Below are positions 4,159 to 62,635 of a stretch of DNA of 64,000 nt, piece after piece. Made by a program: the position numbers and the translations under genes. The DNA is from Aeromicrobium phoceense (GTDB taxonomy: Bacteria > Actinomycetota > Actinomycetes > Propionibacteriales > Nocardioidaceae), in the NCBI RefSeq assembly GCF_013868155.1, contig NZ_JACEOG010000002.1, positions 248,001 to 312,000 on the forward strand, written 5' to 3'. Position 1 is the stretch's first letter, and each line of letters begins with the position of its first letter. Below the pieces are notes generated by a model. That model worked only from the letters and a program-made list of their open reading frames with translations. It did no database searches and had not been told where the DNA came from.

Positions 4159-4640
4159 CCCCGCAGGTCGTCGAGCTGGTCGACGATCGTGTCCTTGGCC
4201 GCGATGGCGGTGTTCCTCGCACGCCGGCCGAGCCACGGCTTGTGCGGATCCGGGTCGAGGGTCGACAGCAGCAGGCCGCCGGTGAGCGACACGTTCTTCA
4301 TGAAGTGGGTGAACTGGTTCTTGCGGGCGACGGGATCGGTCTCGTTCCAGAACGGGTGCCCGGCCACCGTGGTGGCGGGCATCGTGGCGGCCAGCACGAG
4401 CGCGGAGGTGCGCGGGAGGTGGCCAGTGGCCAGCGTGGCGCCGGCGGCCACGTGCACCGCCGAGTTCAGCCGGATCAGATTCGTCGGCGAGAGGTTCGCC
4501 TGGGGCGCGACCTTGCGCAGCACGTCGGCCACGGGCTGGGCCTTGTGGGCGAGCGCGCCGGGCTTGCGCAGCGCCATCACCCCGCCGGTGATGAACATCG
4601 AGGCGAGCATCGGACGGGCCACCGCGCGCAGGAGAGTCAT
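4155..4640 (-). CDS. DoxX-family membrane protein
   Basis: A 161-residue protein of the DoxX family (Pfam DoxX, four-helix membrane proteins often tied to thiol or redox stress). Hydrophobic segments lie near residues 8-25, 60-80, 80-95 and 115-130, and the N-terminal [14 protein letters not shown] is typical of the family. The C-terminus is polar and charged ([14 protein letters not shown]). It is the first gene of the leftward aroA-rsgA-hisN group and overlaps aroA by 4 bases. The function of this subfamily is not established. Confidence 0.8.
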
Positions 4641-4682
4641 GGGTTCATCATGCCGCAGAGCGGCCCTGCTGCCGAGGTCCGC

Positions 4683-6758
4683 TCAGCCGAAGGTGCCCGA
4701 GAGCGACGTGCCGCCGCTGGTGACCGAGTAGTTGCCCTGGGGGAACCACAGCGTGTTGATCCGCAGCGCCGGGAGGGTGCGGTCCGCGGTGACCGGCTGC
4801 GCGCAGTTGAGCGTGGGGCTGATCTGGCTGGCCCGGGTGCACGTCCAGCCGGACCACCCCGTGATGAGCTCGACGCCCGGGAAGCCGCCGGTGAACGTGA
4901 CGCGCATCTGCACCGTCTGACCGGGCCGGACGTCGGGGCCGACCGTGAACGCGAACGTCGCCGAGGTCCAGCTCGTGGTCGCCGTGGCGCGCACCGTGCT
5001 GTCAGTCGGCTGCGTGGTGGGTTCCGTGGTCGGTTCCGTGGTGGGCTCGGTGGTGGGTTCCGTGGTGGGCTCGGTGGTCGGCTCTGTGGTCGGTTCCGTC
5101 GTGGGCTCGGTGGTGGGTTCCGTGGTCGGCTCGGTCGTGGGTTCCGTGGTCGGCTCGGTCGTGGGTTCCGGCGTCGGGATGGTGGTCGGCTCCGGCGTGG
5201 GCTCCGTGGTCGGCTCGGTGGTCGGTTCCGTGGTCGGCTGCTCGCCCGTGGGCTCGGTGGTCGGCTCGCCCGTGGGTTCCGTGGTGGGCTCGGTGGTCGG
5301 CTCGGTGGTGGGTTCCGTGGTCGGCTCGGTGGTGGGTTCCGTGGTCGGCTCGGTGGTCGGTTCCGTGGTCGGCTCGGTCGTCGGCTCGGTGGTCGGTTCC
5401 GTGGTCGGCTCGGTGGTCGGTTCCGTGGTCGGTTCCGTGGTCGGTTCCGTCGTGGGCTCGGTCGTCGGTTCCGTGGTCGGTTCCGTCGTGGGCTCCGCGG
5501 TCGGCTCGGTGGTCGGCACGGGCGGCAGCGGCTGGGGCTCGTCGGGGAACGGCTCGTCGATCACCGGGTCGTCGGCCGGCGGCTCCTCGTCGCCGTCGGC
5601 GGGTGCCTCCTCCGGGGGGTCCTGCCACACCATCGGGTCGGGGAGGGCGCCCACGTCGGGCGCCGCTGCATCCGCGGCAGCACCGCCGGGCAGGGCCGCG
5701 GCACCGGGGGCAGCGGCGCGGGTGGTGTTCTCCACGGCCGGCGGACGATCCACGGTGATGAGCGCGGTCGCGCCCGCGATCACCACGACGCTGGCCGCGG
5801 CGCCGGCGGCGATTCCGGCCGGGCCGATCGTGCCCAGCACGCCCATGAAGCCCGACGTGGACCCTCCGACCGCACCCGCTCCGCCACCTGCTCCGGTACC
5901 GCCACCACCGCCGCCGCCGTTGCCGTTCCCGCCGGCACTGGCCGCGGCCAGGCCGCCGGCGGCACCGGTGCCCTGCAGGTATCCCGCGGCCGCGGTGCCG
6001 AGGATGGCCGGGGCCAGGATGCCGGCCAGGCCGTGGTTGAAGTCCTGGAGCTCGAGGTACAGACCCATGCACGCGCGGCACTCGTCGAGGTGACGCTGCA
6101 CCTTGCCGGCGTCGCGCCGCGACAGCCCGCCACGCACGAAGGCGCCCAGGTTGCCGATCGCGAACTGGCACTCGGGCGTCGTCGTCGGGACGAGGTGCTT
6201 CTGGAGGTAGGCCTGGCGCAGGCCCTCACGCGCCCGGTACGCCAGGGCCGAGACGCTGTTCGCGCTCATCCCCAGCATCGGCGCGATCTCAGCGGGCTTC
6301 TGTCCCTCCACGTCGAGGTGCCACAGCACCATCTGCCAGCGCTCGGGCAGCGAGGCGAACGCCTCCGCGGTGGTGGTGCGCTCGAAGCCGAGCTCGGCGG
6401 TGTCGACGAAGTCCACCCGGCCGTCCAGCTCGAACTGGTCGTCGGTGGGGCGCTCGCGCGTGACGGCGCGGATGCGGTCGACGTGCAGCCGCCGGACCGC
6501 GGTGAGCAGGTAGGCGCGGAAGGACTCCTGCGGGCCGCCGCCCTTCTGGACCGTGACCAGCACCTTGGTGAAGGCCTCCGCGACGAGGTCGTCGGCGTCG
6601 GCACCACGCATCAGCTGGCGCGCCAGGCGCAGCGCCGCGGCCTGGTGCCGGGTGTAGAGGTCGCCGTACGCAGCCGAGTCGCCCTCGCGGACGGCGGTCA
6701 GCAGATCGGCGTCGCTTCGGTCGTGGCCCAGGGCAGAGGAGGAGGCGTCGATGGTCAC
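4683..6758 (-). CDS. ECF sigma factor fused to zinc-finger anti-sigma domain, membrane helix and Thr/Pro/Glu stalk
   Basis: A 691-residue protein that joins a whole signalling chain in one chain. Sigma region 2 lies about 18-95 and region 4 about 130-190 ([18 protein letters not shown], then a helix-turn-helix). A zinc anti-sigma motif H223-x3-C227-x2-C230 follows, with C197 before it. Next come a Gly/Ala linker, a membrane helix about 312-336 ([20 protein letters not shown]), a Pro/Ala/Asp segment, about 170 residues of TEPT repeats (415-585), and a C-terminal beta-rich domain (586-691) with two cysteines. The predicted topology is sigma and anti-sigma inside, stalk and C-terminal domain outside. 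I chose GTG 6758 because AAAGGGGCAG sits upstream; an in-frame start at 6806 lacks one. ECF groups with a C-terminal zinc finger, helix and surface domain are known, but the signal and targets here are unknown. Confidence 0.88.
5005..5516 (-). repeat. 12-bp coding repeat (TEPT stalk)
   Basis: About 42 tandem copies of a 12-base unit encode Thr-Glu-Pro-Thr on the minus strand. A few units are altered (Ala for Thr, Gly insertions, one Gln before the end). Synonymous codons vary between copies (ACC or ACG, GAG or GAA, CCG or CCC), so the tract is old enough to have drifted, yet the unit length is kept. Copy-number change by slippage would keep the frame and alter only stalk length. Confidence 0.92.
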
Positions 6759-6823
6759 TGCCTGCCCCTTTCCCGAGTGGTCGCGTGGGTGCCTACGCGT
6801 GACCACGACTGGCCACCTTGCTC

Positions 6824-6852
6824 AGTCTAGGTGCCGAGCGCGCTGCTGTCCG
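6824..6852 (-). promoter_or_regulatory. Candidate promoter of the fused sigma gene
   Basis: Read on the minus strand, CGGACA (6852-6847) and TAGACT (6829-6824) are separated by 17 bases and lie about 65 bases upstream of the GTG start at 6758. TAGACT matches the TANNNT -10 used widely in this window. The -35 match is only partial, so an ECF-type promoter elsewhere in the interval is not excluded. Confidence 0.4.
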
Positions 6853-6870
6853 TGGTTCCGGTGGCCCTTT

Positions 6871-6882
6871 GTGACTAGTCAC
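6871..6882. promoter_or_regulatory. 12-bp palindrome in the divergent sigma/GGDEF promoter region
   Basis: GTGACTAGTCAC is a perfect 12-base palindrome between the fused sigma gene and the GGDEF-like gene. It lies 19 bases upstream of the candidate -35 of the sigma gene and 143 bases before the ATG of the divergent gene. A dimeric regulator could bind here; none can be named. The rest of the 266-bp interval holds no visible gene. Confidence 0.4.
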
Positions 6883-7024
6883 GGGCCCGTTTTTCGCGGC
6901 GGCGGCAGCGTGAACTCACCGTTACGCGCGATCGGTGCAGAAAGTCGCGTCATGGGGGCCGCGGTCAGCCGTCCCCTAGATGTCACACGGCGACCACGCC
7001 CGGCCCTTGCGAGAGGAGGCACGG

Positions 7025-7672
7025 ATGAACCCCTTCGACGTCAGCTATGTCGACCTCGACTCGGCGGTCCGTGCCGGTCAGGTGGACGCAGTGGACGTTG
7101 CACACGAGGTGGGAGCGAGTGCAGCGTCTCTCGGAGTTCCACTCCACGAGGTCCTCGACCGCGTGGAGAGGGCCTTCGACGGCCTCGAACCGTCGTTCGC
7201 GATGGTCCGTGGGGTCGCCGTGGCGTGGGCCGAGACGTCCCGGGCGCTGCAGCTCGAGACGTCGTGCGAGGACCCGCTGACCCAGTTGTCGACCCTGGCG
7301 CACCTGCGGCACAGCCTGGACGGGCTGTACCGCGGGGCGGTCAGGGACGACTCCACGGTCACGGATCGTCACGGGCTCGTCGTGGTCGAGCTGCCTCGGC
7401 AGGCCGGCCAGGTGCTCGAGCAGGCGCTGCACGCGGTCGACGTGAGTGTCGCCCTGCGGACGGTGTTCCCGGGCGACGAGGTCATCGCACAGCTGAGCCC
7501 ACGACGCTTCTGCGTCCTGGCCGAACGACGTCGGCTGGACCAGCCGCCGCTGAGCCTGGTCCCCGTCCTGCTGCGCCGGACGTTCGAGTCGCCCCCGCCT
7601 CGGGTGTGGCTCGAGCTGCTGCCGCCGGTCGCACAGGACGTGACCTGGGTGCTCGACGCACTCACCGGTTGA
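7025..7672 (+). CDS. Degenerate GGDEF-like protein
   Basis: A 215-residue soluble protein without signal peptide or membrane helix. Residues about 80-200 resemble a diguanylate-cyclase fold: EDPLTQLSTLAHLRHSLDGL matches the DxLTGLxNR-like first helix, and FPGDEVIAQLSPRRFCVLAER sits where the strands around the active loop would be. The GGDEF signature is missing, so cyclase activity is not expected. ATG 7025 follows GAGAGGAGG. The gene is divergent from the fused sigma gene, so the two may share control. A nucleotide-sensing or structural role is possible but not shown. Confidence 0.6.
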   Translation: MNPFDVSYVDLDSAVRAGQVDAVDVAHEVGASAASLGVPLHEVLDRVERAFDGLEPSFAMVRGVAVAWAETSRALQLETSCEDPLTQLSTLAHLRHSLDGLYRGAVRDDSTVTDRHGLVVVELPRQAGQVLEQALHAVDVSVALRTVFPGDEVIAQLSPRRFCVLAERRRLDQPPLSLVPVLLRRTFESPPPRVWLELLPPVAQDVTWVLDALTG

Positions 7673-8490: not shown

Positions 8491-8550
8491 AGGAGGTTTT
8501 GAATGCTCGCATGCCCCGTACGTCCTGCCGCAGTAGGCTGGGCGACGATG
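8491..8550 (+). promoter_or_regulatory. Dual start region of sigR (long and short isoforms)
   Basis: AGGAGG (8491-8496) lies 6 bases before an ATG at 8503 that is in frame with sigR and adds 15 residues. A separate -10-like TAGGCT (8534-8539) lies 8 bases before the second ATG at 8548, which has no good ribosome binding site and would be leaderless. This gives a stress-induced long form and a constitutive short form, as known for SigR' and SigR in Streptomyces. Confidence 0.65.
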
Positions 8551-9162
8551 ACTGACGACACCGTCGTGGACCCGTCGACCGAGACCACGGAGGAGCGCCA
8601 GGCCCGATTCGAGGCCGACGCCCTTCCCTTCCTCGACCAGTTGTACTCGGCCGCTCTGCGCATGACCCGCAATCCCCAGGATGCCGAAGACCTGGTGCAG
8701 GAGACCTATGCCAAGGCGTTCAGCGCCTTCCACCAGTTCAAGCCCGGCACGAACCTGAAGGCCTGGCTGTACCGGATCCTCACCAACACGTACATCAACC
8801 ACTACCGCAAGAAGCAGCGCCAGCCCCAGCAGGTGACCGACGAGGTCGAGGACTGGCAGATCGCGGCGGCGGCGGCCCACAGCTCCTCGGGGCTGAAGTC
8901 CGCCGAGATGGAGGCGCTCGAGCGCCTGCCCGACTCCGACGTGAAGGACGCCCTCCAGCAGCTGCCCGAGGACTTCCGCTACGCGGTGTACCTGGCCGAC
9001 GTCGAGGGCTTCCCCTACAAGGAAATCGCGGAGATCATGGACACGCCCATCGGCACCGTGATGTCCAGGCTCCACCGCGGACGGCGTCAGCTGCGCGAGC
9101 TGCTCACCGACTACGCCCGCGAGCGCGGTATGAAGGTTCCTGCTGGAGGTGACGCGAAGTGA
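8548..9162 (+). CDS. sigR: ECF sigma factor SigR (SigH-type), thiol-oxidative stress
   Basis: A 204-residue ECF sigma factor that directs the thiol-stress regulon (thioredoxin and mycothiol genes). Region 2 is clear ([18 protein letters not shown], then [28 protein letters not shown]), as is region 4 ([16 protein letters not shown], then [23 protein letters not shown]). The QRQPQQ linker is typical of the SigR branch. The stop overlaps the GTG of rsrA by 4 bases. Expression is probably from two promoters: a perfect SigR site giving a form starting at 8503, and a leaderless start at 8548. The identification is strong because of the rsrA neighbour. Confidence 0.95.
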
Positions 9163-9422
9163 GCTGCGAAGGACCCGATTGCGAGAAGGCGCTGGAGAAC
9201 CTCTACGTCTTCCTCGACCACGAGATCGACACCGCCAGCTGCGACGAGATCCAGTCCCACCTCGACGACTGCTCCGAGTGCCTGAACGAGTTCCACCTCG
9301 AGCAGATCGTGAAGGCCCTCGTCGGCCGGTCGTGCACCGAGGTGGCACCCACCCCGCTGCGCGAGAAGGTCATGTTCCAGATCCGCACGGTCCAGGTGGA
9401 GATCCGCACCGAGTCACCCTGA
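9159..9422 (+). CDS. rsrA: Redox-sensitive anti-sigma factor RsrA
   Basis: An 87-residue zinc anti-sigma factor. It holds SigR inactive when reduced and releases it when its cysteines form a disulfide. The ZAS motif H34-x3-C38-x2-C41 is present (HLDDCSEC), with additional Cys at 3, 8 and 28 in the places expected for the RsrA subfamily. The GTG start overlaps the sigR stop (GTGA), which couples the two and keeps their amounts matched. A strong hairpin follows 12 bases after the stop. Confidence 0.95.
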
Positions 9423-61591: not shown

Positions 61592-62627
61592 GGCCGTCGC
61601 GCGGTCCCAGGGTGGCCCGCACGATCCGGTGCAGTGCCCACTCGAGCGGCCCCCGGGAGAAGCGCAGGAACCACAGGCTCGCTGCGACGAAGGCGACCCC
61701 GAGCGTCCACAGGGCCAGCGCGCCCGAGCCGGACTCGAGCGCGGGGTCGACCTGGATCGCGGCCCAGTAGGCCACGATGTGGCCCACGTAGAGCGTCAGC
61801 GCCATGCGCCCGACCGACTCCAGGGGATACGTCAGTCCGCGCGCCTGCGGCGTGAGGGCGATCAGCAGGGCCAACACGGCGACGCAGATCGCCAGGACGG
61901 ACGCCGCCTCCACCGGGTTCTGCGAGCGGTGGTCCGACGTCAGGGTGGTCAGGACGAGGCTCTCGCGAGCGGCGGGGTCGGCGAGCGTGCGCTGCAGGAG
62001 ATCGAGCATGAGCTGGTGCAGGAGGATGCCGACTCCGAGACCCACGAAGCCGAGGGCGAGCAGGGTGGACCGGCCGATCCGCAGGCGGCCCAGGCCCAGC
62101 CCGACGAGCAGGAAGCCGGTCCACTGGATCGCGGGATAGGGCATGCCGACGAACAGCTCGCCGATCGGGCTGGTGGTCAGCTCGGGCACCCGTTCCACGA
62201 GCCACGCGATGATCACGGGGCCGGCGATGCCGAGCACCGAGCCGACGCCGATCAGCACCGGCACGGGCGCTCGCAGGAACGGCAGCGCCGCCACGAAGTA
62301 CACGGCGTACGAGGCCAGGATGACGGCCACGGGGGTGCCGAGGGCGCTGAGGAAGGCGCCGAGTGCGGCCAGCACCGCGGCGCGCACGAAGATGGCCAGC
62401 CGGTCGTCGGCGAGGCGTTCGCCAACGTGGGGCCGTGTCCCGCCGGTGGTGAGCGCGAGCGAGAACCCGGCGACGACGACGAACAGCACGGCGGCACGCC
62501 CGTCGCCCACATGCCGCCAGGACGCAGCGACACCCGGATCGAAGTCGATCCGGGTGTCGAGGTGGGCGACCACCATGCCCACGAGCGCGAGTCCACGAGC
62601 GGCATCCAGCCCGCGGACTCGCGTCAT
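61572..62627 (-). CDS. Polytopic membrane protein, DUF1624/acyltransferase-like
   Basis: A 351-residue protein with about ten membrane helices. The N-terminus RVRGLDAARGLALVGMVVAHL matches the heparan-alpha-glucosaminide N-acetyltransferase-like (DUF1624/YeiB) family, which has a conserved Arg-Asp and His in that first helix. Such proteins are thought to acylate cell-surface sugars. It lies 8 bases after the crotonyl-CoA reductase stop, so is co-transcribed with it, with no obvious metabolic link. Confidence 0.75.
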   Translation of the reverse strand: MTRVRGLDAARGLALVGMVVAHLDTRIDFDPGVAASWRHVGDGRAAVLFVVVAGFSLALTTGGTRPHVGERLADDRLAIFVRAAVLAALGAFLSALGTPVAVILASYAVYFVAALPFLRAPVPVLIGVGSVLGIAGPVIIAWLVERVPELTTSPIGELFVGMPYPAIQWTGFLLVGLGLGRLRIGRSTLLALGFVGLGVGILLHQLMLDLLQRTLADPAARESLVLTTLTSDHRSQNPVEAASVLAICVAVLALLIALTPQARGLTYPLESVGRMALTLYVGHIVAYWAAIQVDPALESGSGALALWTLGVAFVAASLWFLRFSRGPLEWALHRIVRATLGPRDGLSAAGP

Positions 62628-62635
62628 GTCGGCGA

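Follow-up and report, generated by a model that had tools for sequence, protein, structure and literature searches.

Few studies have dealt with sigma factors that carry a membrane anti-sigma domain of their own. In the Aeromicrobium locus described here, the gene for such a protein lies next to the gene for a small cyclase-like protein, here named GGL, and the question raised by the locus is whether the two belong to one regulatory unit and, if so, what part GGL plays in it. We analysed the pair within the window, i.e., the whole stretch of 64,000 nucleotides, which comes from the genome G000 (Aeromicrobium type, 3.27 Mb, 100% complete), and compared it with related genomes.

Organization of the locus

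The sigma factor is encoded on the minus strand and GGL on the plus strand. The features of the sigma gene and of the region between the two genes are the following.

4683–6758, minus strand: ECF sigma factor fused to a zinc anti-sigma domain, with one membrane helix, a Pro/Thr-rich tail, and a C-terminal domain (691 aa; GTG start; from Pfam, the ORF, alignment, and orthologues)
6456–6659, minus strand: sigma-70 region 2 (aa 34–101; Pfam PF04542, E 1.1e-9)
6225–6365, minus strand: sigma-70 region 4 (aa 132–178; Pfam PF08281, E 9.5e-7)
6069–6170, minus strand: zinc anti-sigma domain zf-HC2 (aa 197–230; Pfam PF13490, E 3.2e-6)
5751–5813, minus strand: most hydrophobic segment (aa 316–336), a likely membrane helix (Kyte-Doolittle scan)
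5004–5516, minus strand: (TEPT)n proline/threonine repeat (Pfam PT), presumed extracellular
6759–7024, no strand: divergent intergenic region of 266 bp, between the starts of sigma (minus) and GGL (plus)
6871–6882, no strand: perfect 12-base palindrome GTGACTAGTCAC, present and not conserved

Pfam finds Sigma70_r2, Sigma70_r4_2, zf-HC2, and PT repeats in the sigma protein, with PF04542, PF08281, and TIGR02937 above cut-off. Residues C197, H223, C227, and C230 of the zinc anti-sigma domain are invariant in an alignment of sigma homologues (33/33). The ECF regions 2 and 4, the C-terminally fused zinc anti-sigma domain, the hydropathy peak at aa 316–336, and the PT repeats all correspond to features of ECF52 sigma factors. 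For the C-terminal domain, the Pfam scan gave no match and recognized no carbohydrate-binding domain. The coding repeat at 5004–5516 is hypervariable in length among close relatives, where full proteins have 691, 724, and 813 aa.

The ORFs confirm the exact spacing given in a preliminary description of this DNA, with the sigma and GGDEF-like genes divergent across 266 bp. Chance is far from accounting for this arrangement, which is genuine. The same description had drawn attention to the palindrome between the genes, which is indeed present but has no significance. It is missing from the corresponding region of the nearest relative, G006, though the GGL of that genome is 98% identical to the window's, and perfect 12-base palindromes are common in the window (62 observed, 40 expected from composition). 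For these two reasons we rejected GTGACTAGTCAC as an operator; its presence is evidence of nothing.

A second ECF sigma gene, which reads like SigH/SigR, is located at 8503–9421 together with a following gene that reads like a zinc anti-sigma factor. This second sigma gene is also retained close to the pair in loci of Aeromicrobium, Kribbella, and Nocardioidaceae. The names aroA, RsgA, SigH, and symporter were given to genes by reading only.

Conservation of the sigma–GGL pair

The back-to-back pair occurs in Aeromicrobium and many related soil bacteria. Among the window's own genome and 57 relatives, GGL is present in 34, and a sigma homologue stands head to head with it in 32/32 relative loci fetched (33 minus that of G022, which is fragmented). 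Across the order, full-length GGL matches (E ≤1e-28) were obtained in 107/293 genomes, and the sigma factor (E ≤1e-100, plus G211 at 3e-74) is found in the same 107. The pairs are divergent in 106/107 cases, 130–549 bp apart by match edges; the remaining one is split by contig ends. The class (393 genomes) yielded 20 full-length GGL matches in other families, all of them head to head with sigma (20/20), one (G391) with a weaker sigma match of 3e-43. The GGL search left out G670 and G671. None of the window's other neighbors was detected around these 20 loci, within ≤6 kb on each side and with some stretches ended by contig ends. The pair is therefore kept by more than shared synteny.

First-copy loci are divergent in 14/14 cases in Nocardioidaceae, and a count of 34 first-copy loci gave 34/34. 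The same holds for 77/80 named loci, which come partly from the same genomes as the other counts; the exceptions are a tandem arrangement (L317), a locus with no sigma within the flank (L267), and one that starts near a contig edge (L278). The two genes are thus neighbors in relatives, the point on which the preliminary description had let its proposal stand or fall. The compared genomes are related, so that these counts are not independent and the numbers overstate independence. We conclude that sigma and GGL form a conserved two-gene module of Actinomycetes, which is probably functional.

Six second copies of GGL were found. Five, in Kribbella, have no sigma of the same family in the 12.6-kb stretch, and the sixth (G178) lies tail to tail with a sigma paralogue. 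The record of L260 (G043) bears the name Streptomyces sp. SID13031 but falls among the Kribbella genomes (genus label g3), and is probably mislabelled.

Sigma relatives with no detected GGL also exist in the class. Six of them (G477, G597, G433, G644, G590, and G509) match at E 1e-97 to 1e-81, and those of the f22 genomes mostly near 1e-65. In five of the six, the divergent neighbor reads like an orotate phosphoribosyltransferase (the one scanned matches Pribosyltran). G024 carries a further sigma copy without GGL; its locus L336 has two tandem sigma-family genes (4568–6163 and 6247–7068) and no GGL was found in the 10-kb stretch.

GGL is predicted to be a degenerate GGDEF protein

GGL is composed of two predicted domains.

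7025–7672, plus strand: GGL, helical N-terminal domain and degenerate GGDEF domain (215 aa; ATG start; ORF, predicted fold)
7025–7258, plus strand: N-terminal four-helix domain (aa 1–78; best Foldseek E against PDB 1.2)
7259–7669, plus strand: GGDEF-fold domain (aa 79–215; VIA-align Z 12.9 against the LapD GGDEF domain; hhalign)
7496–7510, plus strand: SPRRF at the GGDEF position (aa 158–162; hhalign profile comparison)

The protein has nothing above the Pfam cut-off and no NCBIfam match in the two model sets, and within its family only 2/33 members touch GGDEF_2 and 1/33 GGDEF, all weakly. In a structure model built from 33 sequences (pLDDT 87.7), residues 79–215 match GGDEF domains. The best VIA-align match is the GGDEF domain of LapD (Z 12.9, rmsd 3.2, 131 residues), with other GGDEF domains tied within 1, and Foldseek comparison of the model with GGDEF domains gave a best E of 1.6e-4. 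In agreement with this, hhalign against six canonical GGDEF domains (probability 92.9, E 3.6e-7) places IAQLSPRRF over VARLGGDEF. The family profile also matches long open frames over the same stretch, most of 477–1524 residues; in G024, G027, G036, and G098, the four positions compared, these matches overlap PF00990 matches.

Two sets of GGL sequences were inspected for catalytic and regulatory motifs, one of 33 and a more divergent one of 47, with 7 common to both. Neither the GG[DE]EF motif nor RxxD at the I-site position occurs in any of them (0/33 and 0/47 for each). The preliminary description had called the protein cyclase-like without its GGDEF motif, which agrees with SPRRF in the motif position and with the GGDEF fold predicted over residues 79–215. 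On the strength of the model and the alignments, GGL is a predicted catalytically dead GGDEF-fold protein. Residues 1–78 form a confidently modelled four-helix domain (pLDDT 89.4) with no good PDB match by Foldseek (best E 1.2), which does not show a new fold.

That description had also raised c-di-GMP as a possible ligand. We searched for c-di-GMP enzymes with two models, those of the GGDEF and EAL domains. The window's own genome has no match to PF00990 (GGDEF), which matches in 8/14 control genomes, and none to PF00563 (EAL), while among 49 genomes of the genus GGDEF is found in 33 and EAL in 32. GGL is kept in several genomes with neither GGDEF nor EAL matches: G000, G006, G007, G018, G101, and the more diverged G004. 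The proteins of G006, G007, and G018 are 84–98% identical to the window's. By these two models, neither domain is found in canonical form in the host, and in the species that keep GGL without them a c-di-GMP role would have no canonical source. Control by c-di-GMP is thus unlikely in the host, and in the clade of the window c-di-GMP signalling seems to have been lost.

A promoter-like element between the genes

The intergenic region holds one conserved element.

6922–6956, plus strand: conserved promoter-like element reading into GGL, with core GCGTCATG at 6947–6954, its first base 78 nt before the start codon

The word GCGTCATG, which was picked from the same data, occurs within one mismatch in 66/67 intergenic regions, where four Markov shuffles gave 15.25 on average. 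A strict pattern, an A-rich stretch followed by YCGCGTCATGR, is present in 63/67. ECF promoters often carry CGTC at −10. A −35 element with fixed spacing was not found among the intergenic regions; the position of the A-rich stretch varies, with a shift in the clade of the window itself. The median PWM score across the 67 regions is 30.6 toward GGL, where 40 of the 67 sites are training sites of the PWM, and −1.2 toward sigma. A second copy directed at the sigma gene, as expected for autoregulation, is thus not the rule, the six highest of the 67 regions reaching 10.1–17.8.

The conserved element is therefore single and GGL-directed, which suggests that sigma turns GGL on. The proposal that one sigma factor controls both genes finds support for GGL but not for the sigma gene itself, and the partner is probably part of the sigma factor's response, as had been supposed, judging from the promoter-like element that reads into it.

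At only 11.5 bits, the GGL site of the window ranks second there. The site at 62608–62628 (13.5 bits) was taken as chance; by reading, it runs into the final part of a coding region of the opposite strand.

Other candidate targets of the element

The association between element and sigma was examined in four tests, all on sites that were not among the 40 used for training. The first began with a non-exhaustive whole-genome profile search of 17 chosen genomes, with 150 candidates scored in each. GGL sites are among the listed places in 13/15 cases, many of them training sites; those of G000 and G007 are unlisted, and the search missed a Wzz site of G012 that a locus-level scan found.

In the window's clade, the recurrent second sites of this search precede two genes, N1, which has no Pfam family, and N2, which matches AAA ATPases. 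The site is present before 9/9 best-matching N1 homologues (six 78–100% identical, three 36–43%), four of the nine being the sites that led to N1. Its distance to the aligned start is 28 nt in five and 34–67 nt in four. Seven weaker N1 homologues are without GCGTCATG, five of them in four GGL genomes (G013, two in G025, G034, and G002). One of the nine N1 sites is that of G017 (82% complete), in which no GGL was found. N1 is matched in 20/49 genomes. At L166, L172, L179, and L173 (G000:C1, ~2657142 and ~2660552), two element copies lie 3.4 kb apart before N1 and N2, and the genes that they flank (G000:C1) look, by reading, like an operon for an acetate symporter.

In G261, the second site stands before a gene of the SsgA family. 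Among SsgA-family genes, the element scores above the 95% null in 16/21 genomes with sigma and in 0/9 without it (p 7.7e-4); two of the nine sigma-less genomes (G068 and G071) hold a sigma paralogue. With G261, the genome that suggested the test, set aside, 15/20 sigma genomes are above the null. The test took one locus in each of 30 of 31 matching genomes, leaving out 11 further copies and G198. The 16 positive cores contain CGTCA in 9 and GCATCA or TGTCA in 7. At the ssgA-like gene of G151, which has no sigma, an altered copy, GCCTCAC, stands where relatives have GCATCA[CT]. No ssgA was found in 13/13 genomes of the window's genus.

The element also accompanies GGL copies away from sigma. 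All five stand-alone Kribbella copies carry it (scores 12.4–23.6), so that GGL may act in trans. No element accompanies the G178 copy, which is tail to tail with a sigma paralogue. At GGL-less loci the picture is mixed. G477 has a strong element (23.3) and no recognizable GGL, and at the five loci of the orotate phosphoribosyltransferase type the best scores are −9.0 to 9.9, with no CGTCAT in any best site.

Shorter Aeromicrobium sigma paralogues are divergent from Wzz-like genes (L330, L337–L340, L342, and L345; two Pfam-scanned). The core xCGTCAT is located 31–80 nt before the Wzz start in 6/7 of these loci, three of which are near-identical, and the full profile exceeds the 95% null (6.9) in 2/7. 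Over all sigma-paralogue or GGL-less loci examined, it does so in 5/32 (2/20 and 3/12). The sigma paralogue–Wzz pairs may form a similar switch, in this case for polysaccharide. In G657, G638, G524, and G043, the further second sites lie before genes for small proteins that have no Pfam family (three of them scanned), and the element copy of G020 (L183) has an ECF sigma gene on one side and a DUF5667 gene on the other.

A model for the pair and its alternatives

We propose that the sigma factor, which carries its own anti-sigma domain, would be held at the membrane until an external signal, read by the tail, frees the sigma part; this step is suggested by the architecture and by the proteolysis model published for ECF52. 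Once freed, sigma would start GGL transcription at the one GCGTCATG element of the intergenic region; it may also transcribe a small regulon, with N1 and N2 as candidates in the window's clade and ssgA-like division genes in Nocardioidaceae. GGL, in turn, would be an adaptor or feedback regulator in the cytoplasm that acts back on sigma through contact between the two proteins, c-di-GMP not being the mediator. That sigma transcribes GGL is well supported by the comparative sequence data. For the return step, we infer that GGL most likely acts on sigma as a non-catalytic partner, because it is the sole candidate target that accompanies sigma throughout the order, the others depending on lineage. 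Taken as a whole, with a membrane-released sigma, transcription of GGL and a small regulon, and feedback by GGL, the explanation has in our judgment about an even chance of being right. The close sigma relatives without GGL, the missing fixed −35, the different motif of SCO4117, the low score of the window's own GGL site, the N1 homologues without a site, the N1 site of G017, the ssgA cores other than CGTCA, and the rarity of the full profile beside sigma paralogues count against it. A more specific form, in which a GGDEF fold would have become a dedicated anti-sigma or co-sigma factor that needs no cyclic nucleotide, is transcribed by its own sigma, and is kept where canonical c-di-GMP enzymes are gone, is put forward tentatively, as possible though doubtful.

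GGL might instead be a mere product of the regulon and serve other targets, such as cell division or envelope polysaccharide proteins, in a structural or adaptor role, with no feedback on sigma. The five Kribbella second copies, which keep the element with no same-family sigma within ~6 kb, would fit such a role, as would the SsgA-family genes among the other candidate targets and the Wzz genes that adjoin sigma paralogues. We consider it somewhat unlikely, as it leaves unexplained why GGL and sigma are kept together in 107/107 genomes while N1 and ssgA vary by lineage. The element itself could be read by another factor co-inherited with sigma. If the reader were some other regulator or sigma factor, the pair would be joined only through its shared location, and the inconsistent −35, the different published ECF52 motif, and the lack of a full element at most sigma-paralogue loci would find an easy explanation. 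The pair, however, stands in other families without the window's synteny, the element goes with sigma at ssgA-like genes, and its core lies beside sigma paralogues with a different partner at 6/7 Wzz loci; this alternative is thus quite improbable.

A role as a nucleotide receptor, by which a degenerate GGDEF domain binds c-di-GMP or GTP and passes a second-messenger signal to sigma, is suggested by the predicted fold and by the GGDEF and EAL proteins of many relatives (33/49 and 32/49). Degenerate GGDEF domains are known as receptors elsewhere. Against this stand the persistence of GGL in the six genomes without GGDEF or EAL matches named above and the loss of both GG[DE]EF and the I-site RxxD from every sequence of the two sets, and we regard such a role as very unlikely. 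The proposed protein-contact feedback on sigma remains our preferred reading. The element offers a testable promoter and a candidate regulon across several actinobacterial families, with GGL as the constant partner. GGL is also an example of a GGDEF fold retained by a genome without canonical GGDEF or EAL matches.

Comparison with known systems

A search of titles and abstract beginnings found no literature on the sigma–GGL pair; prior mention in ECF classification papers is possible. GGL resembles the degenerate GGDEF receptors LapD and FimX in having the same predicted fold with the catalytic motif lost. In contrast to these, GGL lacks an EAL domain as partner, persists where neither GGDEF nor EAL models match, and goes with a sigma factor. 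Streptomyces has another pair in which a small protein of the cytoplasm, RsiG, is associated with a developmental sigma factor of Actinobacteria, WhiG. RsiG, however, binds c-di-GMP via a coiled coil and not a GGDEF fold, and WhiG is not an ECF sigma factor, both unlike the pair described here.

Among ECF sigma factors, a passage of PMC8999054 describes ECF42 with a C-terminal extension and a conserved neighboring YCII-domain protein that is thought to be regulatory, as may be the case here. The partner of ECF42 is a YCII protein and its extension is of the TPR type, whereas here the partner is GGL and the fusion is to a membrane-bound zinc anti-sigma domain. A further passage of that source proposes release by proteolysis for ECF48, ECF52, and ECF53 (PMC8999054).

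In domain architecture, the window sigma resembles ECF52 SCO4117 of Streptomyces coelicolor, a single protein with an ECF domain, a zinc finger, a membrane helix, and an extension rich in proline. The carbohydrate-binding domain of ECF52 has no counterpart recognized by Pfam in the window protein. The main text of a 2018 paper presents SCO4117 as the first characterized ECF52 member, places it downstream of atrA, and does not contain the word GGDEF (PMC5826349). The promoter motif proposed there, CSGYN-17-SRHA, is theoretical and differs from the element found here (PMC5826349). According to the same main text, SCO4117 activates differentiation genes including ssgB, and its knockout lowers ssgB (PMC5826349), an effect that fits SsgA-family genes as candidate targets of sigma factors of the window's type.
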